From contig JAFVBB010000011.1 of the NCBI GenBank assembly GCA_017480225.1, positions 1 through 50,655 of the forward strand: DNA of 50,655 bases. Direction: 5' to 3'. The DNA is from Bacteroidales bacterium (GTDB lineage: Bacteria > Bacteroidota > Bacteroidia > Bacteroidales > P3). The notes beneath the pieces are model-generated. The model was not told where the DNA came from. It saw nothing but the letters and a program-made list of their open reading frames with translations, and made no database searches. Made by a program: the position numbers and the translations under genes. Shown here piece after piece: positions 2,725 through 43,515 of the stretch (position 1 is the stretch's first letter; every line of letters starts with the position of its first letter).

Positions 2725-2883
2725 ATACACGCCACACCACCACAGGCAGGCCAACAAAGAATGCCGCCAACCGCTTGGCGTCAAAAATCTCACGCTAAAA
2801 CCATAACTCGCAGACTGTTACAGCCAAACACTCCCATAAACAACTGATAACCAACCCACAGCAGCATCAACACCGTATCAACA

Positions 2884-2986
2884 CCGTCTGTTCTTCGATT
2901 GTTCTCCGATTGTTCTTCGATTGTTCTTCGATTTAATATCGAAGAACAATCGAAGAACAATCGGAGAACAATCGAAGAACAGACGG
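2884..2986. repeat. 11-base-unit palindrome, family A, copy 1
   Basis: Perfect inverted repeat: 49-base arms (2884-2932 and 2938-2986) around a five-base loop TTAAT. Each arm is CCGTCTG followed by four units of 11 bases (TTCTTCGATTG, with the second unit TTCTCCGATTG), the last unit being cut at the loop. Just outside the left arm, ATCAACACCGT occurs twice in tandem (2866-2876, 2877-2887), so the 11-base period continues into the flank. It lies between convergent arsB and tilS. There is no T-run after either arm, so it is not a standard intrinsic terminator. Close copies lie at 34369-34460 and 43413-43515. Confidence 0.97.
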
Positions 2987-3081
2987 CCTTGGCATGGCGG
3001 CAGGACGGCTGAAATACAGTCTGGCCACGGAGGCAACCGCCACAAAACAAGAAAACCCGGCCGGAGAAGAGCCGAAGGGCA

Positions 3082-4437
3082 TCAGGAGGGGTTGAAAGAA
3101 GCCTTGAGGCTGAGGGCGCGGGTGGTGGAGGCGGTTATGCGGACGCGGTGATCAAGACGCAGCCCAACCAGCCACACCGGCCTGCCGCAGGCATCCTCGA
3201 GCATGAACAGACGCCGCTTGTCGAGCAGGCTCAGCTTCCTGTCCTTGATGAAGTCGCTCACCAGGCGCGGCCTGTCCATGCCCAGCGGCTGGAAGCGGTC
3301 GCCCCCGGCCCATGGGCGCAGGCGCAGCGGCAGCGCCACGCAGTCGGCATCGACCAGCTCGGAAAGGCACACGGGCGCGGCCTCGTGACGCAGCGGGCCC
3401 GGGGCGGCCTCGGTGACGGAAACCGAAGGGGGCGGCAGCACGCCGGAACGGCGCAACAGCAGGCGGCCACGGTCAACCACAGCCTCGTGGGTGGCGGAGG
3501 CGAAGCAGGCGCCGGTGACGGCTGTGCCAAGCCGCCGCAAAAGGTCGGCAATCTGCGCCGCGCTGAAGCCGAAGGGGGTGAGCAGCTCGTGGGCCAGCGT
3601 GAGCTGCGGGCGCAGCGCCAGCAGGCGGCCAATGTCGACAGCAGAGTAGTCGTAGCCGAAAGGCGAGCGGCAGGTGGCGACAACGGTCGGCGCCAGCTCG
3701 GCCACGCGCTCGTTGTAGAGCACCTCGGCCTCGGCCAGACGCTCCATGGTGTCGGCCAGCACCCGGTCGGCGTCGGGGTTGAGCTGGCGCAGCAACGGCA
3801 TCAACTGCAGCCTGACGCGGTTGCGCCGCACATCGGGCACTGCGTTGGTGACGTCCTCTACATAGTCAAGGCCGTTGTCGGCCACGTAGCGGTCGATGTC
3901 GGCGCGTGAAAAGGGCAGCATGGGGTGCACCACGTCGAGCCGGAGCAGGCCGCCCGAGGGCGCGGGCCAGAGCGTGCCCCTGTTTGCGGGGCGTATGCCG
4001 TGAAGCCCATGCAGGCCGGTGCCGCGCACAAGGTTGAGCAGCATCGACTCGACCGAGTCGTCGCGGTGGTGGGCGGTGGCCAGGCAAAGGTACCCACAGC
4101 GAGCCGCCAGGCCGGCGAACCAGCCATAGCGAAGGCTGCGCGCAGCCTCCTCGACGCCCATGGCGTGGGCCGAGGCAAAGGCGGAGGTGTCGAAGTCGAC
4201 AGTGTGGAACTCCACACCGAGCCTGGCGGCCAAAGCCTCAACAAAACGCTGGTCGCGGTCGCAGTCGCCCGGACGCAAATGGAAGTTGCAGTGGGCCACG
4301 GCGAAGCGGAAGCCGGCGCTGTGCATGAGGTGCGCAAGGCACACCGAGTCGCGTCCGCCGCTAACGGCGAGCAGCACCGTCTGCTCCGAAGAGAAGAGGT
4401 GCTGCCCAGCCACGAACTGCTTGAAGCGTCCGAGCAT
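3082..4437 (-). CDS. tilS: tRNA(Ile)-lysidine synthase
   Basis: 451 residues. TilS ligates lysine to the wobble cytidine of tRNA-Ile with anticodon CAU, using ATP, which changes both its decoding (AUA) and its charging; it is an essential cytoplasmic enzyme. The PP-loop ATP-pyrophosphatase signature SGGRDS sits at residues 26-31, followed by the N-terminal catalytic domain (about 20-210, with the conserved HHRDD stretch around residue 125) and the TilS substrate-binding and C-terminal domains (about 250-450). Its length is typical for the Bacteroidetes form. The start ATG at 4437 overlaps the stop codon of the giant surface protein gene by one base (TAATG), so translation is probably coupled to that gene unless an internal promoter exists in the latter's 3' end. 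No intrinsic terminator is seen behind it; the family A palindrome lies there instead. Confidence 0.95.
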   Translation of the reverse strand: MLGRFKQFVAGQHLFSSEQTVLLAVSGGRDSVCLAHLMHSAGFRFAVAHCNFHLRPGDCDRDQRFVEALAARLGVEFHTVDFDTSAFASAHAMGVEEAARSLRYGWFAGLAARCGYLCLATAHHRDDSVESMLLNLVRGTGLHGLHGIRPANRGTLWPAPSGGLLRLDVVHPMLPFSRADIDRYVADNGLDYVEDVTNAVPDVRRNRVRLQLMPLLRQLNPDADRVLADTMERLAEAEVLYNERVAELAPTVVATCRSPFGYDYSAVDIGRLLALRPQLTLAHELLTPFGFSAAQIADLLRRLGTAVTGACFASATHEAVVDRGRLLLRRSGVLPPPSVSVTEAAPGPLRHEAAPVCLSELVDADCVALPLRLRPWAGGDRFQPLGMDRPRLVSDFIKDRKLSLLDKRRLFMLEDACGRPVWLVGLRLDHRVRITASTTRALSLKASFNPS

Positions 4438-7400
4438 TACTTGACAATCATTTTCCGCATCTGCCTGATGCCGTCGACCTCGATTCCATAGTAGTAGACC
4501 CCGGCGGGATAGGCCTCGAGGTTGAGGGTGACGGTGTGGTCGCCAGCGTCAAAGTGGCGCTCGAACTGGTGCAGGGTGTGCCCCAAAGCGTCGACCACAA
4601 AGAAATGCACATCGGCAGCCACAGGCAGACTGAACGGCACGGTGGTCAATCCATGGAAGGGGTTGGGGCGGTTCTGCTCAAGGACGAAGGCGGCCTCGCG
4701 GACATTCTGTATGCCCTCGACATAGTTGACCACCTGCACCACCGACGTCATGTCGTTGACAGAGTTGGTGTCCTCCTTGATGTCGCTCACGCGGCCGGTG
4801 CCGACGTAGGTGCGCTGCAGCGACTTGGGTATGCGACGGCTGAACGGCAGGGTGTAGGTCTGCCCAACCTCGAGGCGCTGGTTGACGAGCGTGCTGACGG
4901 TGTTGCCATTGACGACAGCCTCGATAGCAAACTGACGGTTCACGAGCGGCACATTGCCGACATTGACCACCTCGAGGAAGAGGCGGCAGTCGTCGGCCGC
5001 GTTCTCCTCAACAATGACGCGCTTGACGGCGATGTCGATGTTTGGCTCGCCCAGCACATCGGTGGTGTCGTTGGCGCGGTTGTTGTCGCCTGTGATGTAG
5101 ACCATGGCCTTGATGTTGTCCGGGCGGTGGATTGTGAAGTAGTTGAAGAGGTAGTAACCCTTGTTGAGCGCCGGGAGCGGGGTGGCACGGATGTAGTCCT
5201 CGGTTATCAAGGTGGTGAGGTCGTCGTTGATCCAGTAGCCCACGATGAAGTTGTTGGCGCCGCGCGTGCCCCGGTTCTCTATCTCGACGGCGACGTGGTA
5301 TTCGCCCAAAGTCGACTCGTCGATGAAGATTGCCGTGGCGGCCAGGTCGGTCACGGCCATGATGCCGTTGATGCGCTTGAAGACCGTGTCGTTGTGGCTG
5401 TACTCGTTGCCGTCACACTCAAGGTGGCTCACGATGTCCATGGTGCCCATCGTGGCGTGGAGTTTGTGCTCGAAGGTGTAGTTGTAGTACTCCATCGACT
5501 CCAACGGCTTGCCCAGCAACTGCTCAAAGTCGAGATACTCACACACAAGGTCCTTGCCGTTGACGGAGTAGCACGCGGTGGCGGAGGAGATGGGGTTGAT
5601 ACCGAAGTTGCGCAGGCGCAGGGTGACAGGCACTGTGGTGTCGCCAGCCACAACCTTGGCGGTAGGCTCGATGAGTTCCTCGGCACTGATGTCGCCGTTG
5701 AGCGGCATGATGTGCAGAAGGCGCGTGGCGGTGTCGTTGTCGATGTAGAGGTCGCTGTTGTTGATGGTGAACGCCACAATGTAGAACGAGTCGGGATAAT
5801 CACTCGTCACCTCGAAAGCGTTGAGCAGCTCGAACTCCTGTGTCGCGTCGGGCGGAAGCTCGCACGTGAGGGTGGAGACCTTCGACAGGCCGGCTCCATA
5901 GTGAATGTAGCCGATCTGCAGGTTTCGGATGGTGTCGGTGCCGAAGTTGTGCACATCCACCTTTGGCTGGTAGGTGCGTCCGAAGCGGGGCGCGTCGGGG
6001 TAGGTGATGTTGGTGACACCCACATCGACCGCACGGCGGCCACGACCGATGTGGAAGTCGTCGATGGCACAGCCGTCGCCATAGCTGGCACTGGTGTTGT
6101 TGCCGATGGGAGTGGTGTAGACCACGCGGAACTGCAGACCCTGGCGATAGTCGGGACGCGCCTTGGTTGAGGCGGTGTAGTAGCGGGTGTAGTCGGAGAA
6201 GCTGCCCGAAGAGCCACTGAAGGCCAGGAGTTCCTCGTCGTTGTACCACGAGCTGCTGGAGTCGGTCTCAAGTTTCTGCCACTGGTTCTTAGCGTTCAAG
6301 AACTCGATGTGCATCTCGCTGCCACCGGTGAGGTTGCGCACCATGTAGAACGCGATGGTGTCTGGGCGGATGCTGGTGTTGTCGATGATCGGGCTGTAGA
6401 GGTAGCTGACGTTGCCACGGACACCGGTGTTGATGGTCTTGGTGGCGTCGGTCACCCAGGCCAGGTCGCCTGAATGCGTGCCCTTGAGAGTGTTCTTGTT
6501 GGGCTTGGCATGTTGCCAGAAGTTGCGGGAGAACTCGTTGTAGCCGCGAGGAGCATACCACAGGTCGAGGTCGTCGAAGTTGTCGTTCAGCGTCACCTCG
6601 ATCTCGTGGAAGCGGTAGTATTCGCGTTCAATCATGTTGTTGCTTGCGTCGGCATCATTTTCGAGCTCGTGCCAGATGGTGAGTGTGGTCACGCCAAGCT
6701 CAAACTGGCGCGAAGGCAGGGTGACAACGGTGCTCTGGCCACCAGGCAGGCTGCCCGTCCACAGATAGACGCCGTAGCCGGTAGTGTCGTTGATAATGGT
6801 GTCGCCAGTGATGTCATCAATTATTGTGTCGGCGGTGTTGATGATGTCCAGGAAGTTGTCGTCCTCGAAGCGGTAGTAGATTTTGAGTTCGGTGAGCTCA
6901 TCCTTGCCCTTGTTGGTCAGACGGAAGGCAATCGGGGTGGGGCTGTCGTCATTGATGCGGAAATCGCGTGGCGTAACCATCTGGGTAATGGCAATGTCCT
7001 TTGACGGCGCGTCAGCGTCGACAAAAAGCAGGAGGTCTATCACATGGCCCTCGGTGGAGGAGGGGTCGTAGCCAGACACCTGGACACGCATACGCATGTA
7101 GCCATAGGAGGCGCACTCGGGGATTGTTATCTCGGCACGGAAGACAGAGTCGTTCCAGAACGGCTCGGCATCGACAAGCCGCTCGTCGCAACCATTGGTA
7201 TCGTGCGAAAACAGGCCGTCACGGTCGAGGTCGACAGCCACGGTGGTGCGGCAGCGGAATCGCTGCGTGACCGAGGCGTTCGGGGTTACCTGGATCAGGA
7301 GGGAGTCGGTGGTACCACGACGGACATGCAGCACAGGATATTCCGGCTGGTCGTAGTTGGCCATGTCGGTGACGGTGCGGTTGAGGTAAGGTATGTCGAG

Positions 7401-10400
7401 GTCGATGGAATTGAACGAGAGTCGCGTGATGTCGAACTTGGAGACCTCGGCATCGGGTGTCCAGTCGCGGTTGTTGTAGCGGTCCTGCGACAGCGAGGTG
7501 AATGTGTGCAGGGTGTGCACAGTGTCGTTGGCCCGCGCGCCGTCATTGCTCAAATTGGTGTAGGCCCGGAGGGTGTAGGTTTGCGCGGAGGTTGGAGTTG
7601 GAATGTCGAGCAGTGTGCTGAAGGTGTACTCGTAGGTTTGATGCGAGGTGATTGATGCAGGGATGTTCTCGCTCACCTTCTGGATAAGCTCATTGCCACG
7701 GCGCAGCTCGAAGACAACAGGGACATTGCTCTGGGTCTGTGAGCCATAGTTTGCCACGCGGACACGCACCGTGTCGTTCTCCATGTAGACACGGCTGCCT
7801 ATGGGCTTAAGCACAGCCTCGCAGGCCATGTCGCGCTGCATGAGCGAGCCGACACTGACAGTCATGGCCTTGAAGTCGCTGGAGCAGCCCTTTGAGCTGA
7901 CACTTCGCAGATAGTAGGTAGAGTCGTGGAAATACTGCGGAGAATTGGTCCATACGCTTCCGGTGAAGAAAGGAGTGGCATTGGTGTCGCGATACCAGCG
8001 GACAGGCAGTCCATTGGCCTGCTCTGCCCATATCTTGCCCCAGGTGCCGTAAGCAAGCGTTGTGTCGTGCCCCTGCGGGTCGGCAGGGACGAAGTAGGAA
8101 TCCTTGATGGGAGAATAGCTTGAAGAGGTGGCAGTGGTGTCATTGCTGACAACGAGGTCGTATTGATACTTGGCCCAGCCTCGCACGCGCACCTTGATGT
8201 CGATGGCAGAATCAGTCGGGTAGAGGTTAGCCAGCTGGGTGAATGTGTATCCCAAAGTGTCGCCCACGGCAAGCGGGGCGGTCAGGGTGACTGTCTGTTC
8301 CACCTTCGAGGGCATCGTGGACACGGTGTAGTTGGCCGGGGAGGTGACGCTGGCACCATAGCCAATCTTTATCTGCGAGCCGGAAGGAATAGGCTTCATA
8401 CCCTCATTCTTGAGCTGGATGGACACCGGAGCCTTCTTAAGTCCGCACCCACTTCTTGTGCGAACAAGCTTGGCGGCAATGTTGAAGGCAGGCTTGATAT
8501 AGAATTCGACTGACGACGAGTTGTTGTTGATTACGGTGTCATCGGCGCATTCCACGAAAATCAAGACCGTCTGGTCGTAAACCAAACCACGAGGAGTCGG
8601 CATCTTGACTGTGTCGGTACGGGTCTCGAACGGAAGGAAGTTGTTCATCACCTTGTCGGCCGAGCGGGTGTCGCTCATGTTGCCGTCAACGTAGGCATAC
8701 CACTTCACGTTATTCTCGGTTACAGCACCGTTATTGTAGAAGGTCACAACAACCGAAACCGAGTCGGTCTCAATGTAGGGCGAGGCATTACCGCTGGCCA
8801 TATAGGGGGCAACAACATTGAGAATGGCTATGTCGTGCTCCTCCAAGAACATTTGCACGGCACCAACAGTAGGAGGCGGGTTCTGTCCGCGCGGGGTGTC
8901 GAAGATGTCGTCAGGCACATCGGGGTTGTACTGGCCCTTGCCAATGAAGGCCGCAATGGTCAGCCGCAGGTCATCCTCGGCCTCGAAGAAAGGCTCCTCG
9001 AAAAGGGACTGTCCGTCGTCACTGTTTGCAGCCTGGAGCGCTGCGAGAGAGCCATAGGGAGTATCTTTTATGTAGAAGGGGTTTGTCGCACTGCTGAAGT
9101 ACACGTTGTTGTTCGACGACACCACATTGTTGGCATCAAGCATGTGGTAGGCATAACCGTAGCTTGCATTGTGCAACACGTTGTTCATGACTTCAAGGTG
9201 GCTGGTGGTTGCGCCTGTGTGAAGCGCATAGGAGGCATCGCTGGCTGAGTTGTTGGTAACTGTGGTCGCATAGATGCTCACTGTGTTGAAATACACATTG
9301 ACGTAAGTAGACGCAGTGTCAATCCAAATGCCGGCAGACTTGGTCGGATTCAACCCCTTGCTGTTTGTGCTGTGCGTGCCAATCATGTTGTTAGTAATTC
9401 GAGCGGGATTGATGGCTGTAGCAACGACATTGTTCAGCTGAATGCCACGCTTGCCGCCTTGAGTGGCATCAATGAGATAGATCTGGTTTTTGCTAATGCT
9501 CAAACTGTCGGTCGACGAAGATACTTGTACTCCGGTCAAGGCTCTGTCGTTGGACGAGTTTGCGGAACGAATGACATTCTTTTCAATATTGGCAACCTCG
9601 ACGTTGCGAAGGTTGACGCCATAGTTTGCGAAATTGGTTATCTCATTGTTCTCAATGCGAACTGACTTCAATGTGCCAGCATTTCTTATTGCATAGTAAC
9701 CACTGTCCATTACGGAGTTGGTCACGCTGATATTTTCAACGTTTCCACTAAGAAACAGAGGTGAGGCATTCGCGTTGATAACGGAAGATGCAGCAACCAG
9801 GCGGACTCCATTGAGATGGATATTTCTACTGTCATCGACCACAAGCACGTTGGCAAAATTGCCGCTGGCAGGAGCAGAACGCATAGTGATGCCCTCTATG
9901 AATACATCATGCGTGCTGTCGAGCAGTACGACATAGTTGCTTGCCGACGCGGTGGCAGCCGTGATTGCAGTATTATCGTTGTCGCCCTTCAGCGTGATAG
10001 TGTTCATTGCAGAAGAGCCGAACACTTCATGTATCACCGCCTGCTCTGCATAATTGTTGTCGGGCAGATGGAAGACTACAGAACCTAATATTCCGACCTC
10101 GTGCAGAGTGTCAAGCATACCATTAATGGTGGCGAAGTCGGCATCTTGCGACTGGGACACCACGTAGTCTCCGCCGCAGAAGCGGACAACAAGGTTCCGC
10201 TCGATGGTGTCATTGCTTTTTACGGCATCACCCTCAACGCTGATATATGCCTTAACATGGTGCAGACCCGGCTTTAATATCTGTGAGAAGAGCTCCACGG
10301 AGAGGGTTTCCCCGGACGAGACCTCATCACCAACTGTCGATGCCACGGCTTCCGCTCCATCGAGAGAATAGAACACCTCGACACCTTCAAGACTTGACGT

Positions 10401-13400
10401 TCCCTGACTATGGAGCACCATGCCAACGCCAACCTCCTCGCACGAGGAGAATGTCACGGTGTCGTAGCCGTCTTCCCACGTGATGGCGGCATCAATCTCC
10501 GGGATGTTAACAGGTTGTACAGAGAACATCGCAATGGCGCCATTACAGCCCTCTATCACCTCTAACATGCGAATATTGGGCCGCTTGGCCGTGACAGTGC
10601 CGTTGCCAATTGGGTTGGGTAGCGCGGAGTTCTGCGCCTTGTACAAGGCAGATGCAGTTTTTTCGGAGTAGTAGGTACGGACACCGCTGGTGTAGGATGC
10701 ATCTAAGCTATAGTCGACTTGAACAACTATCGACGACATGCCATCCCATGCAAGCGGAGTTTCAAATGGGTGCTCAATCCAACTGTGGCTTGCCGACTTC
10801 TCGACAACAAAATGACTTGCCGTGTACACTACGTTTGTGACATTTTTCCAACTGCTTATCGAGGCAAACGAGGTGTCGCTTGTAAAGCCGACCGAGAGCG
10901 TATAGTTGTTGAGCGTCACGGAATTGCTGTTGCCGAGCACTGTGTCAAGGTAGAAAGAGACCGAGTTGATGAATCCAGGCCGCATTCCAGCTTGAAGCAG
11001 TTCGCTGGCCGTGTATATATACTGCTGGCGTGCATTCTTATAGTACGACTGATACGGCGAGGGATAACCGTTTGACTCGTTTGGCACCTGGTCTGTTCCG
11101 ATAGCATTGTCCAGCGTGTCGTTAACCAGCAGGCTCACACCTAAGCTGGTGGTCTCGTATATTATGTCTGTGATGTGGACGAAACCAGTGTCAATGGGGA
11201 TAAGGTCGCCGTTGTACCATACCGGGGAAACGCCGCTGGCGGCCGGGAACTGTATGGTGTCACGCGATCCATAGCCGGTCTCATGATCCGCAATGGCAGT
11301 TGGGGCATCTGGGGTGTACTTGGTATGTACCGTGCCTCCGATAGTGTCATTGCCATAAGCAAAGTCATCGACATTGTGGCTCACCCAAGCTGTGACTTCA
11401 ACAATCGAATCATGGCTGAACTTGAGGTCGAGTGTCTGAATGAAAGTATATAGCGTGTCTGCATTGGTGGGCAGGTCGGCATCAATATTCTCACTCACAA
11501 CCTGACTGCCTGCCATATAGTTCACCGTCATGCCATTCACCGTGTTGACACCATAGTTGGTAACCCTAATGGTAATCTCCTCATCTCCCATGTCACAGCC
11601 CCCCTCAGGCAGTATCAGCTCGTCAACCGAGAGATCAACGAGCGGCACCCCGACGGCATTTATTTTCACTTTGGCCACATCGCCCTCGCATCCCATGTCC
11701 TGATACATAATCCAGTCCTCGTCAGCTTGGCCAAGGTGCATCGGGAAGTCCTCACTCGAAAGTTCCCAGTCGTCGGCGTTACCATTGAAGGCCACACGAA
11801 TCATACCTGCCGTATTGTTCTTCATGCTTACACCGGAGCCTGACCATACATAGGAAGGGACCCCGAGGCTGGTCCATTTCACAGTCTGTGTGGAATTAGC
11901 TGTGACAACCGAGTTAACTGCCAAGGCATCTACTATTGCATTGTTGCTGATATAGACAAGACCGATATTTGAAGAGTAGCTCAACTGGGTAGGGCTGATG
12001 TCTGTGTGGAGAGTAACGGAACTGTCGGTAACAGCGCTGGCCGCAAACTGCATCACAAGGGTCTTTCCGGGCTCTATCTTTACATTGCCAAAGCGATATG
12101 CCTTATTGTTAAGGTTCGACGTCGGAGAAACCATCAGCAGCGTGTCCCCCTCCAAGTAGGCCGTAGCATCGCCGACATTGGTAATTTCAAGTGCCATGCG
12201 TCGGTTGTCACTAATCCATGAGGGCATCGGACTTGTCGGACCCGCAGCCGAGGCGGTCTTCGACATCTCCAACTGGGTAAACCGCAGCACTGGCAGTGAG
12301 CGTCGCTGGCGGATGTAGAACGTGGTGTCCTGCCTTATTTGGTCTGTAACAAATGTCTTGCCAGTCCAGAATGGCTCAGTGCTGGCCGAATCAAGATACC
12401 AGAACACTTTCGATTCAGTAAGTGGCGCGCCACTGTGATTGTACGTACTCCACTCGTCAAGGCCGTTGGTTACGGTTATCGTATCGATAGTTGCATAGTC
12501 AACCCATCTCTCTATCTCCGCGGGGGCTGCCGGATGGTAGCGACTGTACACGCGGAAGTTGACGGTATCGTTGGTCGGATTTGGGTCATCGGCAAATGAC
12601 GTCCAAAAACGGACAATATAGAGCGAGTCGTAGATGCCGTTTGGAGGCATATTGTATAGTGAGCCAGTGGAAATGTCAACTGTCCCTTCTGCATTGATCA
12701 CTTCGCTGATTTCCGCAGAATGCACCGTGCCTCCGTTCACCTGCCACGACAGCGTGAGCCTGTGTTCAGTTTCGGCAGTGTAGTCGTTAACGCCATCGTT
12801 CATCAACCTCACTTGCAACTCTACCTGTTCCGGCATCGAGCAGTTGTCTGCCTCAGGGTTGAGAAGCGCCAGCGGAGTGAAGTCGAAAGCAAGGGCAGAG
12901 AACTCGAATGCGCCAGGGCATGTGGAATCAATGCCACGCACGTTGCCGAACATGTCTTCCAACACAGTCGCGATGGGGACACCAAGCCCCATGAGCGAGC
13001 GCTTGAACGTCCGCAGATCCACAACGCCGGCATTGAGGAACACGGGATCCTCATTCACCGATGTAGTGTCGGCTGGTTCTGCCGTAATCCAGGCCGCCAT
13101 GCTCAGGCAGCTGGTACTCCCTCGACGGTTAAGTACAGACCCTTTCGAGTAATACACATTGTGATGAACCTTGTTTGTGGTGTCTGTGCCAGGCTGATAG
13201 TTCAGGGCATAGTTCACCTTGTCCATCGAGGCCACCATGTTGTTTACAAAGACGCTGTTGCTGATGCCGCTGCCTCCAAACGTGACGGCGGCCACGTTGC
13301 CGCGCGTCGGGCCATTGAGCTTTACTGAGTTGTACACCACATCGATGTACGAACCCTGTGCCACGTTCACCAGCGTGCGCATCAAACCCGCCGATCCGTC

Positions 13401-16196
13401 GTCGTCACCAACAATCATGTTGTTGGCAACCAGGACATGGTTGCCTTCCGAACCGTTTACATTGTTGAGGGCCAGTGCACTCGCTCCGTGCGAGGTGAAT
13501 ATCTTGTTGGCAACCAACCGCACATTGCCGTCAGTCGAATTGACAAGCATCACGGCATTTGCATTGCTCACCACATCGTACATCTCGTTGCCTTCCACGG
13601 TGGCATCGGTTATGTATTCCAGACGCAGGGCATTCTCATACTGGTTACGGAAAGTGCTGCCTCGCACAACGATGCCCACAGTCGGGTCGGTGGCCGAAGT
13701 GCCGCTGGCGTCAACGCCAACACGACCTCCCTCAAACAGGCAGCCGTCAACAGTCAGATTTCCTGCTGTGGTATGTATCATCGCGTTGATGCGCATGTCA
13801 GCCGAAGGATTGTCCAGACTGTCGGTGAATCGGCACTCCTCAAAGCGCATGTTCACACTCGAAGAGGCGTGCTCGACCATGTACATATTCGTCCCGTTCC
13901 TCCGCTCAAAGTCAAACCTGCGGAAGCGAATATTGTCCACATACTGCAAATCCACAGCAGCATACGATTGCGTCGAGTTAGTGTCGAAAACCACGACCGG
14001 CCGCAACAGGCTGTCCATGGATTCGAACACGATGTAATGCTCCTCACTCAGGCCGTTTACTGCCGGAATGGTGAATGGGGGATACTCACCAGGAGCCACC
14101 CTCACAATCAGACTGTCGTCGATACCGCAACGCTTGAGCGAGAAAAGGAACTCGTCTATATCGTTGTAGTCGGGCTTATCACCGCCGATGTTACGGACAC
14201 CATTGAGCGGGCCGTCGCAGATGATGAACGGCGTAGACATGGTGTCGTTGTTTGGCTCGTGGTCACGGAACTGGAATGCGCCGGAGGTCACAGTGTCCTC
14301 TACCCACACCTTGAGCACATGGAAGCCCGCCGGCATGTCTATCTCCTTGTCGGCAATCAGCACTTCTTGCTCTGCACCACCCGACAGGAAGCCGCTCCAG
14401 TCGTAGTAGCCGGTTGTCGTGTCGTCTATGCTGTACGATATTCTCACACCAGTAAGGTCGTTGGCTCCGAAGTTTTTAAGTCTGACGGTGATACTGCCGG
14501 GCCGCTGCGCCATTGCCAGGTCATAGTTTGGGTCAATCAGCTCGCTGATGCCGGCATCGTAGAGAAGGGGCATGTTTGCCTCCTCGTTGAAGAGGAATAT
14601 TGGTCTGTCGTTGAAGTTGCTGGTGGTGTTCATTCCCGACTCGGCAGTGAAGATGTCTGCGCCATAGAAAGCACTGATTTGATAGGTGCTGAGACTCTTC
14701 TTGCTGTTGGGGGTGTTGGTCATCTTCAACTGCAGGCCCTTGGGGTCGTCGTCGTTGTCGATGGTGATGAGCATCAGTATGTCATTGCCAGTGTAGTAGA
14801 ATGTGTCCTGCAACTGGAAATTGATGGTGTCGCCTGCGGTGGCGATGGGCAACGTGTATGAGTCGTCGTAGGCTATTGGCATGTAGTCTTTGTAGAAATC
14901 CCACACATAGACATTGGGGTCATGGGTGAAACTGGAAGGCACATTCTTCATCTTCACCTGCATACGCTTCATCTCTTGCGCCGAGTTGGAGCTGTTTTTC
15001 GCAATGAACTTGAATGAAGTGATTGCGCCAGGGCCATAGCCGAAGCCTCGCATTGTCGCCGAGTCGTAGAGTATCTCGCATCGCATGTCGGCACAGTCGG
15101 GGAACGGATAGGTGCCGGCACTGTTCGAGCCTGCATACACAGTCATGTTGGGCGGATTGTCGTTGTGCCGCTCAAAGCCTCGTATGTGGTGGTAGCTTAT
15201 CCAGGCGTCTCTTGCATTGGGGAAACTGGCCGCGTTGATGTTGTTGCTGTTGTCGCGCACCTCACAGCGGAAGCGCATCAGCGTGTCGTAGCCATAGAAG
15301 GGGATGAAACCCATGTAGCGGTTGGTGTAGCCTGCCACCGACTGCATCACTATGCGCTGCGGCGTGTCAGAGCTGCCGGGCAGATAGTCGATGTATATCG
15401 AGTCAGGGTTGAGACCCTGCGTCATGGTGGTCGTTGCATCCATGACAATGCGCGCGCCTCGGCTGTTTGGGTATTCGTCACAGTAGGGGTAGACCAGCAT
15501 GTTGATGCGCGGGCTGACCATCTGCTCAGCGCTGGCCGACACGCTGATGTTGTCAATCCACCACGCATAGCGATCCGGGTCGAGGGTGGTGGTGAGGTCG
15601 CGCTTCTTCAGCACAAACTTGATGATCAGCTTGCGCTGCTCGGTGGGGATGGTCGGGGTGATGACGTTGTTCAGGTTGAAGCGCTCGCTGCGCCACTGCG
15701 AGTTCTCCACGGTGGTGAAGTTTCGCCACGCGTCGTAGCTGTTCTCATTGAAGCAGAGCGTCTGCACAAATGCGCTGCTGTAAGTCTCGCCGGTCATGTC
15801 ATACTCGGTGGCGCCCATCGTCTTCCACTGGGCATCGGTCTGGTGCGCCAGCTTGTACTTGATCGTCGCAATCGTGTAGTCGCCACTCTTGTTCTTCTCC
15901 AGTATTGCCATGTGGTCGAAGCGCAGGGCGATGTAGCGCAACGAAGTGTTCTCCGTGAAGTCAAGGGTGTCGAGCACCATTTCCACGTCGCTGTCGCTCT
16001 GCTGCACCAGGTGTATGGACCTTGCGCCGCTGGTATAGAGCGTCGTTGAGTACTGCTCACCGGCGTCCGGACTGACAGTGAAGTTCGTCGCCTCGCCGCT
16101 TTCAAAGCTTTGGCTCAGCATCTGCACAATCTGTGCACGACCCACCAGGCTCCAAAGCATAAAAATGGCTCCCAAGAGTAAGGTTCTACTCTTCAT
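4437..16196 (-). CDS. Giant T9SS-exported surface protein (3,919 residues)
   Basis: A signal peptide (residues 1-22, cleaved after Arg-Ala-Gln) and a C-terminal type A sorting domain (about 3835-3919, beginning near QNRPNPF and ending in Met-Ile-Val-Lys) mark this as cargo of the type IX secretion system, to be released or anchored on the cell surface. Between them: a jelly-roll or lectin-like N-terminal domain (about 25-235, with WWIDNIS at its end); two right-handed parallel beta-helix regions (about 665-1050 and 2010-2400) rich in Asn and in 'N-x-I' ladders; a second MAM-like or adhesin-like domain near 3200-3390 (CAIDDFHIG); and at least ten CARDB-type Ig-like repeats, recognisable by 'DhAh…hxNxG' openings near 545, 1100, 1520, 1900, 2455, 2570, 2785, 3070, 3390, 3500, 3610 and 3715. 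It looks like a long fibre or adhesin, perhaps glycan-binding. No catalytic motif is visible. Confidence 0.92.
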   Translation of the reverse strand: MKSRTLLLGAIFMLWSLVGRAQIVQMLSQSFESGEATNFTVSPDAGEQYSTTLYTSGARSIHLVQQSDSDVEMVLDTLDFTENTSLRYIALRFDHMAILEKNKSGDYTIATIKYKLAHQTDAQWKTMGATEYDMTGETYSSAFVQTLCFNENSYDAWRNFTTVENSQWRSERFNLNNVITPTIPTEQRKLIIKFVLKKRDLTTTLDPDRYAWWIDNISVSASAEQMVSPRINMLVYPYCDEYPNSRGARIVMDATTTMTQGLNPDSIYIDYLPGSSDTPQRIVMQSVAGYTNRYMGFIPFYGYDTLMRFRCEVRDNSNNINAASFPNARDAWISYHHIRGFERHNDNPPNMTVYAGSNSAGTYPFPDCADMRCEILYDSATMRGFGYGPGAITSFKFIAKNSSNSAQEMKRMQVKMKNVPSSFTHDPNVYVWDFYKDYMPIAYDDSYTLPIATAGDTINFQLQDTFYYTGNDILMLITIDNDDDPKGLQLKMTNTPNSKKSLSTYQISAFYGADIFTAESGMNTTSNFNDRPIFLFNEEANMPLLYDAGISELIDPNYDLAMAQRPGSITVRLKNFGANDLTGVRISYSIDDTTTGYYDWSGFLSGGAEQEVLIADKEIDMPAGFHVLKVWVEDTVTSGAFQFRDHEPNNDTMSTPFIICDGPLNGVRNIGGDKPDYNDIDEFLFSLKRCGIDDSLIVRVAPGEYPPFTIPAVNGLSEEHYIVFESMDSLLRPVVVFDTNSTQSYAAVDLQYVDNIRFRRFDFERRNGTNMYMVEHASSSVNMRFEECRFTDSLDNPSADMRINAMIHTTAGNLTVDGCLFEGGRVGVDASGTSATDPTVGIVVRGSTFRNQYENALRLEYITDATVEGNEMYDVVSNANAVMLVNSTDGNVRLVANKIFTSHGASALALNNVNGSEGNHVLVANNMIVGDDDGSAGLMRTLVNVAQGSYIDVVYNSVKLNGPTRGNVAAVTFGGSGISNSVFVNNMVASMDKVNYALNYQPGTDTTNKVHHNVYYSKGSVLNRRGSTSCLSMAAWITAEPADTTSVNEDPVFLNAGVVDLRTFKRSLMGLGVPIATVLEDMFGNVRGIDSTCPGAFEFSALAFDFTPLALLNPEADNCSMPEQVELQVRLMNDGVNDYTAETEHRLTLSWQVNGGTVHSAEISEVINAEGTVDISTGSLYNMPPNGIYDSLYIVRFWTSFADDPNPTNDTVNFRVYSRYHPAAPAEIERWVDYATIDTITVTNGLDEWSTYNHSGAPLTESKVFWYLDSASTEPFWTGKTFVTDQIRQDTTFYIRQRRSLPVLRFTQLEMSKTASAAGPTSPMPSWISDNRRMALEITNVGDATAYLEGDTLLMVSPTSNLNNKAYRFGNVKIEPGKTLVMQFAASAVTDSSVTLHTDISPTQLSYSSNIGLVYISNNAIVDALAVNSVVTANSTQTVKWTSLGVPSYVWSGSGVSMKNNTAGMIRVAFNGNADDWELSSEDFPMHLGQADEDWIMYQDMGCEGDVAKVKINAVGVPLVDLSVDELILPEGGCDMGDEEITIRVTNYGVNTVNGMTVNYMAGSQVVSENIDADLPTNADTLYTFIQTLDLKFSHDSIVEVTAWVSHNVDDFAYGNDTIGGTVHTKYTPDAPTAIADHETGYGSRDTIQFPAASGVSPVWYNGDLIPIDTGFVHITDIIYETTSLGVSLLVNDTLDNAIGTDQVPNESNGYPSPYQSYYKNARQQYIYTASELLQAGMRPGFINSVSFYLDTVLGNSNSVTLNNYTLSVGFTSDTSFASISSWKNVTNVVYTASHFVVEKSASHSWIEHPFETPLAWDGMSSIVVQVDYSLDASYTSGVRTYYSEKTASALYKAQNSALPNPIGNGTVTAKRPNIRMLEVIEGCNGAIAMFSVQPVNIPEIDAAITWEDGYDTVTFSSCEEVGVGMVLHSQGTSSLEGVEVFYSLDGAEAVASTVGDEVSSGETLSVELFSQILKPGLHHVKAYISVEGDAVKSNDTIERNLVVRFCGGDYVVSQSQDADFATINGMLDTLHEVGILGSVVFHLPDNNYAEQAVIHEVFGSSAMNTITLKGDNDNTAITAATASASNYVVLLDSTHDVFIEGITMRSAPASGNFANVLVVDDSRNIHLNGVRLVAASSVINANASPLFLSGNVENISVTNSVMDSGYYAIRNAGTLKSVRIENNEITNFANYGVNLRNVEVANIEKNVIRSANSSNDRALTGVQVSSSTDSLSISKNQIYLIDATQGGKRGIQLNNVVATAINPARITNNMIGTHSTNSKGLNPTKSAGIWIDTASTYVNVYFNTVSIYATTVTNNSASDASYALHTGATTSHLEVMNNVLHNASYGYAYHMLDANNVVSSNNNVYFSSATNPFYIKDTPYGSLAALQAANSDDGQSLFEEPFFEAEDDLRLTIAAFIGKGQYNPDVPDDIFDTPRGQNPPPTVGAVQMFLEEHDIAILNVVAPYMASGNASPYIETDSVSVVVTFYNNGAVTENNVKWYAYVDGNMSDTRSADKVMNNFLPFETRTDTVKMPTPRGLVYDQTVLIFVECADDTVINNNSSSVEFYIKPAFNIAAKLVRTRSGCGLKKAPVSIQLKNEGMKPIPSGSQIKIGYGASVTSPANYTVSTMPSKVEQTVTLTAPLAVGDTLGYTFTQLANLYPTDSAIDIKVRVRGWAKYQYDLVVSNDTTATSSSYSPIKDSYFVPADPQGHDTTLAYGTWGKIWAEQANGLPVRWYRDTNATPFFTGSVWTNSPQYFHDSTYYLRSVSSKGCSSDFKAMTVSVGSLMQRDMACEAVLKPIGSRVYMENDTVRVRVANYGSQTQSNVPVVFELRRGNELIQKVSENIPASITSHQTYEYTFSTLLDIPTPTSAQTYTLRAYTNLSNDGARANDTVHTLHTFTSLSQDRYNNRDWTPDAEVSKFDITRLSFNSIDLDIPYLNRTVTDMANYDQPEYPVLHVRRGTTDSLLIQVTPNASVTQRFRCRTTVAVDLDRDGLFSHDTNGCDERLVDAEPFWNDSVFRAEITIPECASYGYMRMRVQVSGYDPSSTEGHVIDLLLFVDADAPSKDIAITQMVTPRDFRINDDSPTPIAFRLTNKGKDELTELKIYYRFEDDNFLDIINTADTIIDDITGDTIINDTTGYGVYLWTGSLPGGQSTVVTLPSRQFELGVTTLTIWHELENDADASNNMIEREYYRFHEIEVTLNDNFDDLDLWYAPRGYNEFSRNFWQHAKPNKNTLKGTHSGDLAWVTDATKTINTGVRGNVSYLYSPIIDNTSIRPDTIAFYMVRNLTGGSEMHIEFLNAKNQWQKLETDSSSSWYNDEELLAFSGSSGSFSDYTRYYTASTKARPDYRQGLQFRVVYTTPIGNNTSASYGDGCAIDDFHIGRGRRAVDVGVTNITYPDAPRFGRTYQPKVDVHNFGTDTIRNLQIGYIHYGAGLSKVSTLTCELPPDATQEFELLNAFEVTSDYPDSFYIVAFTINNSDLYIDNDTATRLLHIMPLNGDISAEELIEPTAKVVAGDTTVPVTLRLRNFGINPISSATACYSVNGKDLVCEYLDFEQLLGKPLESMEYYNYTFEHKLHATMGTMDIVSHLECDGNEYSHNDTVFKRINGIMAVTDLAATAIFIDESTLGEYHVAVEIENRGTRGANNFIVGYWINDDLTTLITEDYIRATPLPALNKGYYLFNYFTIHRPDNIKAMVYITGDNNRANDTTDVLGEPNIDIAVKRVIVEENAADDCRLFLEVVNVGNVPLVNRQFAIEAVVNGNTVSTLVNQRLEVGQTYTLPFSRRIPKSLQRTYVGTGRVSDIKEDTNSVNDMTSVVQVVNYVEGIQNVREAAFVLEQNRPNPFHGLTTVPFSLPVAADVHFFVVDALGHTLHQFERHFDAGDHTVTLNLEAYPAGVYYYGIEVDGIRQMRKMIVK

Positions 16197-19960: not shown

Positions 19961-20080
19961 AAAAACTTTTCTCCGGCACCAGCCCCACCCCCGGCGGCAC
20001 CAGCCGAAACGTGGCGCCCCACACCACCCGGGTGTCCCACGATAGTTCAGGAAGCAAGTCGAGGCGGGGTCAAAGTGCTG

Positions 20081-20200
20081 TCAATCACTTGTCAACAGCT
20101 TGTCATCGCCTTGTTAACACCTACATAAGCAGGTCTTGACAAGGCGATGAGTAGGAGTTGAGTAGGAGTTGAGTAGGAGTTGGTCTATCTTTAGCGCTGG
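20081..20200. repeat. 11-base-unit inverted element, family B, copy 1
   Basis: Three exact tandem units GAGTAGGAGTT (20149-20159, 20160-20170, 20171-20181) are preceded by CTTGACAAGGC and GATGA, and face an inverted, diverged array (minus strand GTTAACAAGGC, GATGACAAGCT, GTTGACAAGTG) on the left. An exact 12-base stem (TCATCGCCTTGT / ACAAGGCGATGA) joins the two halves across a 24-base loop. The right end, GTTGGTCTAT followed by GCTG, is shared with the element at 49118-49236. It lies in the divergent region between yceD and the EF-G paralogue, upstream of the latter's promoter. Confidence 0.8.
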
Positions 20201-20377
20201 TTTCCAATATGTTACAACCGACACTTTTACACCCTGCAGGAAGGCCAGGCAACTCGTTCATTTGCAACGAATTGCCGCTTTGTTAGTTTTCATGGCTTCT
20301 GCCGGACAGACCAGTCTCGGCGTTGCAGCCCCGACTTCATGCACTGGCGTCGGGGCCTGTGGCGGCAGAATTTTTAT

Positions 20378-34368: not shown

Positions 34369-34460
34369 CCGTCTGTTCTTCGATTGTTCTCCGATTGTTC
34401 TTCGATATTAAATCGAAGAACAATCGAAGAACAATCGGAGAACAATCGAAGAACAGACGG
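34369..34460. repeat. 11-base-unit palindrome, family A, copy 2 (one unit short)
   Basis: Same element as at 2884-2986 but 92 bases long. The right arm has four 11-base units and the left arm only three, so exactly one unit has been lost from one arm. The loop is ATTAA, the reverse complement of the loop in copy 1. The bases just outside both ends match those of copy 1 when copy 2 is reverse-complemented (TGCCAAGGCCGTCTG and CAGACGGTGTTGA). It lies between the acyl-CoA dehydrogenase and glutathione peroxidase genes, which point the same way. Confidence 0.95.
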
Positions 34461-38014: not shown

Positions 38015-38023
38015 CAAAACAGA

Positions 38024-40184: not shown

Positions 40185-40206
40185 ATCTGCATTATTGTTT
40201 GAATTG

Positions 40207-40237: not shown

Positions 40238-40296
40238 AAAAAAGTGAGCCTTTGCCCGCTGCAGCAGGTGAAACAGGCCACCCGCAGGTGCCCACA

Positions 40297-40338: not shown

Positions 40339-40354
40339 TTTTTTGAGCCATGCG

Positions 40355-40885
40355 CTATCGCCAAAGGCCCGCGGCTGCGGAGGCCGCCTTGCCCTCCAGG
40401 CACAACACATCGCTTTCCGGCACAAAGTGGCCAGTGTCAAGACTGCCTGCCTGCAGCAGGGCTACGGCACCGTCCCTGCTGCGCAGGGTGAGCAGAGCCA
40501 GATTGGAGCTGCCCACAGGATGCAGGCTCCCCAACATGGCGGCGTCGGCCCGCCCCAGCGCCTCAACGGCTATGGCATAGTCGGCAGGCGACAGGTAGAT
40601 GGTGCGGCTCGCCATACGGCTTCCGGTGGGCAGGTAGACGTAGTGCTTCACTGCGCCGCCCAGCCCCATGGCGGTGAGCACCAAACCCACAGCCAGGGCA
40701 ATGATGCCAGCGGCCAAGGCCAGCATCTGCAGGCTGTCGCCCATGCTCGCCACCCGCATGGCAGCCAGCAAGGCCACTCCTGCGGCCAGGGCGACGAGCC
40801 CTATTATCGGGAAACTGCGCTTTTGCGCTATCTTGCCGCCCATGACGGTGGCGGCGTACTCGTGTATGTTTGTCTTGTTTTCCAT
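40355..40885 (-). CDS. Small membrane protein, unknown function
   Basis: 176 residues from the ATG at 40885 (MENKTNIHEYAATVMGGKI). The longer open frame upstream is GC-driven and not credible. A cytoplasmic N-terminus is followed by two close membrane helices (about 25-48 and 53-78), then a soluble alpha/beta-looking domain of about 90 residues with no recognisable motif (LYLSPADYAI, VGSSNLALLTLRSRDG). The hydrophobic hairpin plus soluble tail recalls small inner-membrane Bacteroidetes proteins of unknown role. A good terminator follows. It is likely to be real on composition, but the function is unknown. Confidence 0.72.
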   Translation of the reverse strand: MENKTNIHEYAATVMGGKIAQKRSFPIIGLVALAAGVALLAAMRVASMGDSLQMLALAAGIIALAVGLVLTAMGLGGAVKHYVYLPTGSRMASRTIYLSPADYAIAVEALGRADAAMLGSLHPVGSSNLALLTLRSRDGAVALLQAGSLDTGHFVPESDVLCLEGKAASAAAGLWR

Positions 40886-40992
40886 TGTCTTTTTAGTTGT
40901 TTTCTCAGAATGGGAATAGCCATGCGTCAGCGTGGCCGCATTGGTCGCGGCCCGGCTGCCAGAAGATAGATGACGGGTTATATGGAAAACAA

Positions 40993-41325
40993 TCAGAGCC
41001 TGAGCCGTCGCAGCAGGTAGATGAAGCCGCCGCGGGTGTGGCTGCGTGGAGGGAAACCGTGGCTGCGGGCCGACGCGAACAGGCGCGTCAGCACCTGTGC
41101 CTGCGCCGAGCCGCCTGCCTGATTGCCTGGCAGCAGGCGCGACGTGGACGGAGGGGTGAGCGACTGGCCGCACGGCACGGCAAGCACGTCGCACATGCCC
41201 ATGTCCTCCCACGAGGGTCTCTCCACGCTTTTGCACAGGCCGGCGTCGTGCAACGCCGCCTCCGGCCCCGGGGCTCCGGGGACGATAAACGCCAGCAGCA
41301 TTGCAAACAGCGCCAGGTACTTCAT
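40993..41325 (-). CDS. Small exported protein, unknown function
   Basis: 110 residues with a signal peptide (MKYLALFAMLLAFIVPGAPG) and a basic C-terminus (GGFIYLLRRLRL). A short cysteine pair region lies near 30-52 (GLCKS…DMGMCDVLAVPC). The family is not recognised; small secreted proteins with arginine-rich tails are common in Bacteroidales. The ATG is only about 15 bases beyond the poly-T of the htpG terminator, so there is almost no room for a separate promoter and the gene would depend on read-through from htpG. This, and the short length, keep the confidence moderate. Confidence 0.5.
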   Translation of the reverse strand: MKYLALFAMLLAFIVPGAPGPEAALHDAGLCKSVERPSWEDMGMCDVLAVPCGQSLTPPSTSRLLPGNQAGGSAQAQVLTRLFASARSHGFPPRSHTRGGFIYLLRRLRL

Positions 41326-41339
41326 CGACGTGCGGGCAG

Positions 41340-41384
41340 AAAAAAACGCCCGGCCTGCGGGGCTGGTGCCGCCGGAGGCCGGGC
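41340..41384 (-). terminator. Intrinsic terminator behind htpG
   Basis: On the minus strand GCCCGGCCT, an 18-20-base loop, and AGGCCGGGC, then GTTTTTTTC. It lies about 10 bases after the htpG stop codon. A second small gene starts right after it, so partial read-through is possible. Confidence 0.85.
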
Positions 41385-41392
41385 TGTGGGGG

Positions 41393-43285
41393 TCAGATCA
41401 GTTCGGTGGAGCGCTTGAGGAACTTGCTCAAAGCCTCGCCCTTGAGCAGGCCGGCACCGAGCAGGGCCAGGTCGGCAAGCTGGCTCACAAGCTCGCGCTG
41501 GCGCGCCTCGTCGGGCTCGGCCAGCACACGCCCAATGAGCGGGTGGTTGACGTTGACCACCAGGTTGTAGCTTTCCGGCATCTCGCCGTAGAAGCCCATG
41601 CCGCCCCCGGAGGTCTGCGCCATCTCGCGGTAGCGGCGCATGAACTCGCTCTGGGTAATCTGCATCGGGGCGTCGTCGCTCTCCAGGCTCTCCATCTGCA
41701 CGGTGAAGCGGCCTGAATCAACCGCGCCCTCCACCAGCGGTTTCAGCCGCTCCTGCTCCTCTTTCGTCAGTTTTTCAGGTATCGAGTCGTCGTGCGGAAT
41801 CAGTTTCTCCACCGTGTCGCTGTCCACACGCACGAATCGGCTCTTGTCAACCTTTTGCTCAAGCAGGTTGATGAAGTGGCTCTCCAGGGGCGAGTCCATC
41901 AGCAGCACGTCGTAGCCCTTGGCCTTAGCCTTCTCTATGTAGGCGTGCTCCTCGTCGGGGTTGCTCGCGTAGAGGTAGCACACGGTCTTGTCCTTGTCGG
42001 TCTGCAGCGGCTTTATCTTCTCGCGGTAGCTGTCGAGGGTGCAATGGCTGCCGTCCACGCTTTTGAGGAGGTAGAACTTCATGGCACGCTCGCAGAACTT
42101 CTCGTCGGTCAGCATACCGTACTGCACGAAGATCTTTATGTCGTCCCACTTCTCCTCGAGGGCGCTGTGCTCCTCGTCCTCCTTCTTCCGGCTCATCTCC
42201 TCCAGCTTGTCGGCCACCTTCTTGCTGATGTGCTGCGATATCTTCTTCACGTTGCCGTCGCTCTGAAGGTAGCTGCGACTGACGTTGAGCGGTATGTCGG
42301 GCGAATCGAGCACGCCGTGCAGCAGCATCAGGTAGTCGGGCACCACACCCTCCACCTGGTCGGTCACAAACACCTGGTTGCAGTAGAGCTGTATCTTGTT
42401 GCGGTTGGGGTCGATGGTCTTGCGCACCTTCGGGAAGTAGAGTATGCCGGTGAGGTTGAAGGGGTAGTCCACGTTCAGGTGTATCTGGAACAGCGGCTCC
42501 TCGAAGTTCATCGGGAACAACTCGTGGTAGAACTTGCGGTAGTCCTCGTCGGTGAGCGACGAGGGCGACTTCTTCCAGGCGGGGTCGGGGTCGTTGACGA
42601 TGCGCGGCTGCTTCTTCTCCACGCGCTTGGGCTTGCCGTCCTTGTCGCACTCGGTCTCGCTGTCAACCCACACGCTCTCCTCGCCGAAGCGGATGCTCAC
42701 AGGCATGAAGCGGCAGTATTTCTTGAGCAGCTGCAGCACCGTGCCCTCCTCGAGGAACTCCTTGCAGTCGTCGGCGATGTGCAGCACGATGTCGGTGCCG
42801 CGCCCCTCCTTCTTGTACTCCTCCATAGTGAACTCCGGGTTGCCCTCGCACGACCAGTGCTGCGCGGGGCTGTCCTTCCAGCTCTTGGTGAAAATCTCCA
42901 CCTTGTCGCTCACCATGAAGGCGCTGTAGAAACCGAGGCCGAAGTGGCCGATGAGCGGCTCGTGGCTGTCCTTGTACTTCTCCATGAAGTCGGTCACACC
43001 GCTGAAAGCGATCTGGTTGATGTAGCGCTCCACCTCGTCGGCCGTCATGCCGATGCCACGGTCGCTCACCGTGAGCGTCTTCCGCTTCGGGTCGAGCGTC
43101 ACCTCGACGGTGAGGTCGCCCAGCTCGCCCGCAAACTCGCCACGCGTGGCAAGGGTCTTCAACTTCTGCGTGGCGTCGACGGCGTTGCTTATCAGCTCGC
43201 GCAGGAATATCTCGTGGTCCGAATAGAGGAACTTCTTGATGACCGGGAAGATGTTCTCGGTCTGTACGTTAAGCTTGCCTTGCAT
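41393..43285 (-). CDS. htpG: Molecular chaperone HtpG (Hsp90)
   Basis: 630 residues from the ATG at 43285 (MQGKLNVQTENIFPVIKKF). The GHKL ATPase motifs are ELISNAVDA (about 33), DRGIGMT (about 79) and GHFGLGFYSAFMV (about 118); the middle domain (about 220-490) carries the catalytic Arg region near NVSRSYLQSD, and the C-terminal dimerisation domain ends with the usual short tail without a eukaryotic MEEVD. It is the cytoplasmic Hsp90 for client folding under stress. A terminator follows. No heat-shock promoter signature could be seen upstream; family A palindrome copy 3 lies 130-230 bases before the start. Confidence 0.97.
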   Translation of the reverse strand: MQGKLNVQTENIFPVIKKFLYSDHEIFLRELISNAVDATQKLKTLATRGEFAGELGDLTVEVTLDPKRKTLTVSDRGIGMTADEVERYINQIAFSGVTDFMEKYKDSHEPLIGHFGLGFYSAFMVSDKVEIFTKSWKDSPAQHWSCEGNPEFTMEEYKKEGRGTDIVLHIADDCKEFLEEGTVLQLLKKYCRFMPVSIRFGEESVWVDSETECDKDGKPKRVEKKQPRIVNDPDPAWKKSPSSLTDEDYRKFYHELFPMNFEEPLFQIHLNVDYPFNLTGILYFPKVRKTIDPNRNKIQLYCNQVFVTDQVEGVVPDYLMLLHGVLDSPDIPLNVSRSYLQSDGNVKKISQHISKKVADKLEEMSRKKEDEEHSALEEKWDDIKIFVQYGMLTDEKFCERAMKFYLLKSVDGSHCTLDSYREKIKPLQTDKDKTVCYLYASNPDEEHAYIEKAKAKGYDVLLMDSPLESHFINLLEQKVDKSRFVRVDSDTVEKLIPHDDSIPEKLTKEEQERLKPLVEGAVDSGRFTVQMESLESDDAPMQITQSEFMRRYREMAQTSGGGMGFYGEMPESYNLVVNVNHPLIGRVLAEPDEARQRELVSQLADLALLGAGLLKGEALSKFLKRSTELI

Positions 43286-43412
43286 ATTCTTCAGTATCCT
43301 TTGGTTGTTGTCTTCTTTTGCGCAGTGTTCGGAGCAAGTATTGTGCCACTCCCTCCCCCACTGCCAAAATGTCAGTCGCCCCTCCCAGTGGGGCATCGAC
43401 ACCGTGCCAACA

Positions 43413-43515
43413 CCGTCTGTTCTTCGATTGTTCTCCGATTGTTCTTCGATTGTTCTTCGATATTAAATCGAAGAACAATCGAAGAACAATCGGAGAACAA
43501 TCGAAGAACAGACGG
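43413..43515. repeat. 11-base-unit palindrome, family A, copy 3
   Basis: Same 103-base element as 2884-2986, with perfect 49-base arms of CCGTCTG plus four units. The loop is ATTAA, the reverse complement of copy 1's TTAAT, although the near flanks (CAACACCGTCTG left, CAGACGGCCTT right) are in the same orientation as in copy 1. So the core is inverted relative to its flanks. It lies upstream of htpG (start 43285) and downstream of the TIGR04076 gene (stop 43575). Confidence 0.97.

Follow-up and report, generated by a model that had tools for sequence, protein, structure and literature searches.

The stretch of DNA analysed here (the window, 50,655 nt; contig JAFVBB010000011.1 of assembly GCA_017480225.1, Bacteroidales bacterium) carries non-coding elements in which two runs of 11-bp units face each other, and in its source genome (labelled G000) these fall into two families, A and B, that keep an 11-bp register and together form one evenly spaced set. 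A core recurs in each unit of both arms, no covariation is seen between the arms, and the units are replaced by others from species to species. Our best reading of these sequences, held tentatively, is that the elements may be docking arrays for a putative DNA-binding protein that have recently respread, with a selfish palindromic repeat endowed with spacing immunity, itself possible more than probable, as a close second. New are the unit-quantised register, the joint spacing of the two array families, which behave as a single set, and the exchange of units from one species to the next. Whether the dispersed palindromes of bacteria are selfish DNA or chromosome-organising sites is a long-standing debate, and the presence of two families with different inner arrays on one 11-bp grid, jointly evenly spaced, makes this old question testable. 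Sister species that keep the period while their units change form a natural series in which to look for the reader protein or for the mechanism of copying.

The source genome (2,053,254 bp in 22 contigs, 97.6% complete) was sampled over 850,655 bp, i.e., two sets of twenty 20-kb stretches together with the window, and genes were called throughout with our own hexamer-based procedure instead of a published annotation. This sample contained 85 elements, 59 of family A and 26 of family B, which scales to approximately 140 A and 60 B elements in the genome. The 294 + 294 matches (two strands) obtained with an A 18-mer at three mismatches are an overcount, because this 18-mer also hits internal units. 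The preliminary description of the window had reported three copies of the A palindrome; all three are real and lie where it placed them, but the number is a large undercount, and its proposal of a dispersed non-coding element was supported. The element is not confined to the window. In family B, an inverted array of units (AGTAGGAGTTG, also given as GTAGGAGTTGA) is joined to a conserved tail containing GCTGATTTACAGC and TTACCCCCTGC. The inner A unit, read outward, is ATCGAAGAACA, and many A copies have a weaker, one-sided tail with GCTGGTTTTCAG; by eye, the two tails are related. The A outer units GACGGTGTTGA and CATGGCCTTGA continue the inner (GAACA) units in register and resemble the B unit GTAGGAGTTGA. 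The first of them (consensus GACGGTGTTGA) ends in TTGA in 42/59 copies and the next one in 18/59, and a TTGA-ending unit stands at the equivalent place in 6/16 arrays of species G001.

The 11-bp register emerged from a self-comparison that is blind to the element family. In the first 450 kb of G000, 48 self-similar stretches had a lag of 11, 16 had a lag of 22, and other lags gave 0–2 each; the corresponding numbers in 400 kb of new G000 sequence were 35, 32 and 0–1. The lengths of A elements between their outer anchors were 70 (n = 3), 81 (3), 92 (8), 103 (44) and 114 (1), and all 59 equal 4 modulo 11; the 10-base anchor can settle on an inner unit, so the shorter lengths are possibly underestimates, and the register holds either way. 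All 26 B copies were aligned without gaps over 150 columns, and no residual 11-bp periodicity was detected in 94 spacers shorter than 800 bp without A or B (z 0.3). The 11-base step and the anatomy had been correctly described before.

Gaps between the 85 elements ranged from 4.27 to 20.43 kb, with a mean of 9.83 kb and a coefficient of variation (CV) of 0.38. When positions were drawn at random among intergenic regions matched by gene-orientation class, the CV was 0.85 and none of 5000 permutations was as low as the observed value. Gaps below 4.2 kb were absent (19.5 expected), the largest gap was 20.4 kb in comparison with 41 kb in the permutations, and none of the 26 B elements was located within 4.2 kb of an A element (7.3 expected; 0/5000). 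As the even spacing was first noticed in the initial 450 kb, the later 400 kb, fetched after that, served as the check: the A and B elements taken together (n = 40) had a CV of 0.37 (0/3000 under each of three candidate definitions), and the arrays recognised by their period alone (n = 35) a CV of 0.58 (2, 5, and 15 of 3000 under the three definitions) with no gaps below 3 kb, where 5.4–7.5 were expected. A looser B pattern applied to the first sample gave 48 elements with a CV of 0.43 and a smallest gap of 1.6 kb; three of these (C1 215788, C7b 5634, and C7b 29706) were not recovered by the later scan. The even spacing recurs in a second species, G140, where the CV was 0.41 by period alone (12 arrays; 6–7/3000), 0.60 by pattern (22 elements; 21–53/3000) and 0.53 for the combined set (26 elements; 1–6/3000). 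In G000, A and B are one evenly spaced set.

Whether the repeated unit or the paired stem is conserved was assessed in the B alignment. The within-unit conservation profile is alike across the six units (mean correlation 0.41; 0/5000 permutations), and the profiles of the left and right arms correlate at 0.83. Compensatory change between the arms stayed at shuffle level: axis-symmetric standard pairs made up 61.1% vs. 60.4% in shuffles (90/500), the covariation score was 0.103 vs. 0.095 (58/500), and pairs with changes on both sides numbered 13 vs. 15.7, with 50 vs. 44.8 cells showing such changes (73/500). Sliding the partner by 1–3 columns lowered the pairing to 30–52%, so that the arms are symmetric but do not covary. 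The homologous arms of G140 (25 distinct windows of 80 nt, of which a few are out of register) had 23 double changes vs. 25.7 expected and 82% Watson-Crick cells. With a core recurring in both B arms and no covariation, it is the unit that looks selected and not the stem, and we read these alignments as probable selection on a site that is repeated in both orientations, and not on base pairing.

The same data bear on the suggestion, made in the preliminary description, that the element could be a source of double-stranded RNA and form one very long duplex. A structured RNA, or a double-stranded RNA source acting through the long hairpin, would draw on the very stable folds of A copies 1 and 3 (– 88.3 and – 87.9 kcal/mol, z – 20), but it is very improbable given the lack of compensatory change in both B and G140, and given that strong hairpins (score ≥ 18) are rare at array loci, with 1/16 in G001, 0/4 in G004, 1/10 in G012 (TTCGG-type loci) and 4/17 in G140. 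A long duplex is not a general feature, most array loci checked in G001, G004, and G140 being without a long hairpin. A hairpin finder restricted to loops of 3 or more bases with near-perfect pairing next to them detected none in G140, probably owing to those requirements. At the gathering score, no Rfam family was found at the elements in the window, and the sub-threshold matches were nearly all microRNA models fitted to the perfect stem.

An array for a DNA-bending protein had also been proposed. Its first half fared well, as an array of protein sites is the best fit, but the helical-phase anisotropy of the 11-mers was no higher than in shuffled units (mean z per turn – 0.30 for GC and – 0.07 for roll; 23 units, some of them related), and bending by per-turn anisotropy was rejected as unsupported. 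This result also speaks against a strong gyrase-type wrapping site, similar to those in bacterial interspersed mosaic elements of type 2 (BIME-2), that would relieve supercoils about every 10 kb, an explanation by analogy that we consider improbable. The E. coli gyrase motif covers ~130 bp and contains two flanking parts in which GC has a 10.75-bp period, and BIME-2 elements are enriched in gyrase cleavage sites, for which a role in genome organisation was suggested (PMC6379681). Our elements resemble this motif in their size of ~130 bp, the symmetry of two arms, the period of ~11 bp and the intergenic location. They differ in that the motif has a GC-content period over a degenerate sequence, whereas here a unit is repeated and neither GC nor roll anisotropy is raised, and in that the arrays extend nearly up to the centre, whereas periodicity in the gyrase motif starts ~17–20 bp from the cut.

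Related genomes were also compared, as the preliminary description had recommended. TTCTTCGATTGTTCTTCGATTG (≤ 3 mismatches) was present in 4 of 61 genomes (the source genome, 36 of the same genus and 24 of other families), all four within the genus. Units of other sequence were read in the relatives: TGTTCTACGGT and CCGTACCCGCT in G140 (inner unit read by eye as ACCGTAGAACA), TAGTATTACGG and TGTTCTTTTAC in G012, where a second, palindromic array family occurs as well, and CGTTCGTTTAA and ACAACAAGCGG in G002. Judged by these units, the unit sequence turns over between species. Around htpG, 11-bp arrays of assorted sequence were present at 11 of 24 loci, the best-scoring ones taken from 119 genomes searched. 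No 11-bp arrays were found in 40-kb samples from each of G014, G016, and G021 or in 20 genomes of other families (stretches of 422–20,000 bases, 249,660 bp in total). Among the matches listed, uncultured Bacteroidales bacterium RUG197 (genus not given) had a related palindrome, near relatives lying outside that scan, and a Sporosarcina match was read by eye as coding sequence; two viral contigs matching the 17-mer searched for contained no 11-bp array. Several G012 palindromes of TAGTATTACGG units end in CATTTTAACGG...CCGTTAAAATG, and on contigs C8 and C1 (loci L251-L270) such palindromes are ~95 bp long and mostly situated between divergent genes. Sister species also contain 7-bp tandem arrays (e.g., GAATGAG, TTGAAAA, CCTCCAA; loci L089-L099 in G001 and G002, L251-L270 in G012). 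The counts are 13 for G001 (159 kb), 13 for G002 (80 kb) and 32 for G012 (400 kb), and the G000 samples have none.

The arrays detected at lag 11 lie outside called genes in 78/78 cases in G000 (43/43 and 35/35 in the two samples), 11/12 in G140 and 23/24 in G012. Of the 59 A elements, 57 had a called gene on either side, and these were flanked by co-directional genes in 30 cases, divergent in 18 and convergent in 9, similar to the background of 137, 62, and 17 (n = 216), and B elements were located between divergent genes in 18 of 25 scored cases (one-sided binomial p 9e−6). The three window copies had been described as intergenic and as lacking a following T-run, and both statements were confirmed, the second by eye and with a terminator scan around copy 3 alone that gave nothing. 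A bidirectional transcription terminator or 3′-end stabiliser could account for the location of every A copy in the window 59–159 bp away from at least one stop codon, but the background-like placement of A, the mostly divergent placement of B and the missing T-run leave it with very little credibility, and an intrinsic terminator was rejected on the same grounds.

In the docking-array reading, each element is a non-coding intergenic site with two facing runs of 11-bp units, on which the putative binder would dock once per unit, one helical turn apart, and assemble from both sides of the axis, while the even spacing would serve chromosome organisation with approximately one platform per 10 kb. 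The near-identity of the A copies points to their recent spread or homogenisation, and the perfect hairpin would be a by-product of a young inverted array and not the working structure. A more ambitious version, which we regard as unlikely, is a lineage-specific chromosome ruler, in which one family of DNA-binding proteins would read inverted arrays in 11-bp register about every 10 kb between genes, and in which whole array families would give way to new ones (A beside B, and the different 11-mers of sister species) without loss of the spacing or of the 11-bp period.

Several points weigh against docking arrays. The binder is putative, and because each species has units of its own, co-evolution with them would be required of any shared reader. 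A recurring per-unit core at fixed spacing, which would be expected of tandem binding sites, was found in G000, while the element lengths in G140 are mixed and share no single register, two elements being without anchors. Spacing is weakly regular in G012 (CV 0.64 or 0.68, depending on which of two settings was used; 112–386/3000), where gaps below 3 kb were nevertheless absent vs. 2.3–5.2 expected. The known range, part of one genus plus the RUG197 palindrome, would be unusual for a basic function of the chromosome. Nor is position strictly conserved: the comparison of orthologous loci, as the preliminary description had advised, was limited by low conservation of gene order (122 reciprocal best pairs, some with < 45% identity, and 58 conserved neighbours, of which 17 had a spacer of ≥ 100 bp in one genome or the other), and yielded two gene pairs, adjacent in both species, that hold an element in G140 but lack it in G000 (spacers of 234 and 134 bp, and of 621 and 545 bp). 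These two are all the G140 elements falling between a gene pair that is also adjacent in G000. Shared elements were present in 4/9 upstream regions vs. 5/19 controls and in 0/5 downstream regions vs. 1/12 controls, short spacers (2 and 7; 3 and 8) being left out of these counts.

The filled and empty gene pairs are also what could be expected of a selfish, non-autonomous palindromic repeat that behaves like repetitive extragenic palindromic (REP) sequences or miniature inverted-repeat transposable elements (MITEs), is copied in trans by a putative enzyme, and owes its spacing to insertion immunity or to the recombinational loss of close pairs. We consider this a serious possibility, although short of probable. 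It is in line with the near-identical A copies in unrelated flanks (~1.9 bits per base in the arms vs. ~0.1 outside), with the grouping of A copies by common arm mismatches (by eye), which suggests that whole elements were copied or homogenised, with the placement of all 78 lag-11 arrays of G000 outside called genes, and with the patchy presence inside one genus. However, a search for Y1 (IS200/IS605-like) transposases (PF01797) that was positive in 5/14 controls had no matches in G000, and this transposase, present in 7 of 10 relatives, was not found in G140, G014, and G016, although most A-type palindromes were seen in G000 and G140. G021 has four Y1 transposases and no arrays in its 40-kb sample. 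Other matches in G000 were one to RVT_1 and two to DDE_Tnp_1 (both genes on contig C20). Target-site duplications, for which a check had been proposed, were not found above the mismatched-partner control in the flanks of A and B at k-mer lengths of 5, 6, and 8, with the limit that the tail boundary is not sharp and a duplication further out could escape; at k 4, matches in A reached 0.49 vs. 0.44, at the common element foot. A MITE reading based on such duplications was rejected. In addition, the per-unit core of B, free of indels, suggests constraint, and A and B avoid each other despite their different inner arrays, for which recombination between like copies would be no explanation. Palindromes can also be mishandled in draft assemblies, but an assembly artefact is hardly conceivable with copies whose flanks are unique, which differ from one another and which are seen again, with other units, in further genomes.

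In the window itself (Table 1), 21 matches to TTCTTCGATTG (≤ 1 mismatch) were counted vs. 0.8 expected and a maximum of 3 in 100 shuffles. The claim of an exact mirror holds for A copies 1 and 3, with perfect 49-base arms and a 5-base loop, and fails for copy 2, in which one arm is shorter by one unit. Copy 2 has a glutathione peroxidase gene and an acyl-CoA dehydrogenase gene as neighbours, and copy 3 adjoins the Hsp90 (htpG) gene.

Table 1 Positions of the A and B elements and their adjoining parts in the window
Feature	Coordinates	Strand	Details
A element copy 1	2884..2986	none	left arm 2884-2932, loop 2933-2937, right arm 2938-2986
Two degenerate outer 11-bp units adjoining copy 1, tail side	2862..2883	-	TGTTGATACGG, TGTTGATGCTG (minus strand)
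A element copy 2	34369..34460	none	unequal arms, 38 pairs, 16-base loop
A element copy 3	43413..43515	none	49-bp arms, loop 43462-43466
Two degenerate outer 11-bp units adjoining copy 3	43516..43537	+	
B element 1, inverted 11-bp array	20077..20183	+	left units to 20124, axis 20125-20128, right units 20129-20183
B element 1, tail	20184..20237	+	terminates in TTTTACACCCTGC
B element 2, inverted 11-bp array	49114..49220	+	axis 49162-49165
B element 2, tail	49221..49274	+	contains GCTGATTTACAGC, terminates in CTACCCCCTGC

A short inverted repeat like ACTGnCAAAATGnCAGT, a possible operator, is located upstream of the Hsp90 gene at 43360-43376. Similar repeats are found near the Hsp90 gene in several sister species (loci L110, L114, L122, L126, and L127), and at some sister-species Hsp90 loci two copies of it have an 11-bp array next to or between them. 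The sole Rfam match at the gathering score in the window is to the DUF805b RNA (463-498, minus strand, 38.3 bits), flanked by a 71-nt direct repeat (86%) at 184-254 and 481-551. A minus-strand open reading frame of 3919 codons (4437-16196), in which matches to CARDB and GEVED domains and a sub-cut-off match to a Por secretion tail fall in the last 1187 codons, was read as a giant secreted or surface protein. Two pairs of direct repeats with 87–91% identity (22573-22726/24291-24444 and 23002-23055/24547-24600) lie in a region of poor gene calls that is perhaps a decayed duplication.

Among known systems, the GTAG-type REP sequences are linked to RAYT. The elements described here share with REP sequences and BIMEs the occurrence as many dispersed, mostly intergenic palindromes per genome, and the foot of the A stem (CCGTCTG) contains CGTC one base in; GTAG occurs in several B units and not at one end. 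REP stems measure 5–13 bp (GTAG) or 8–9 bp (CGTC) (PMC3733652), in contrast to the 49 bp found here (A arms of 44–50 bp in 25 of the 29 A hairpins of the first sample), and the tandem 11-bp units, the lack of a RAYT in G000 and the even spacing over two families are further differences. The missing RAYT does not by itself separate A and B from CGTC repeats, because the latter are reported to lack a dedicated transposase (PMC3733652). With stems of 44–50 bp being too long, no Y1/RAYT transposase in G000 and no Rfam family at the gathering score, membership in the REP/RAYT group was not supported, and none of the outcomes named in the preliminary description as fatal to its novelty claim was observed. 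The MITE BrickBuilt of Porphyromonas gingivalis is a dispersed Bacteroidales element with a tandem minisatellite of ~23-bp units. It is alike in being dispersed and carrying a tandem repeat, and the elements described here differ from it in their 11-bp unit and in showing no signal of target-site duplication. BrickBuilt is named in PMC5771137. No title or abstract describing a palindromic array of 11-bp units in Bacteroidales was found in the open full-text literature, although absence is unproven. Regulators of the OmpR/PhoB type bind tandem head-to-tail 11-bp sites, one per helical turn, which are few and located at regulated promoters. The head-to-tail arrangement of 11-bp sites, one per turn, is shared by the arrays of both families, which are set apart by having about eight units that face each other at an estimated 200 places.

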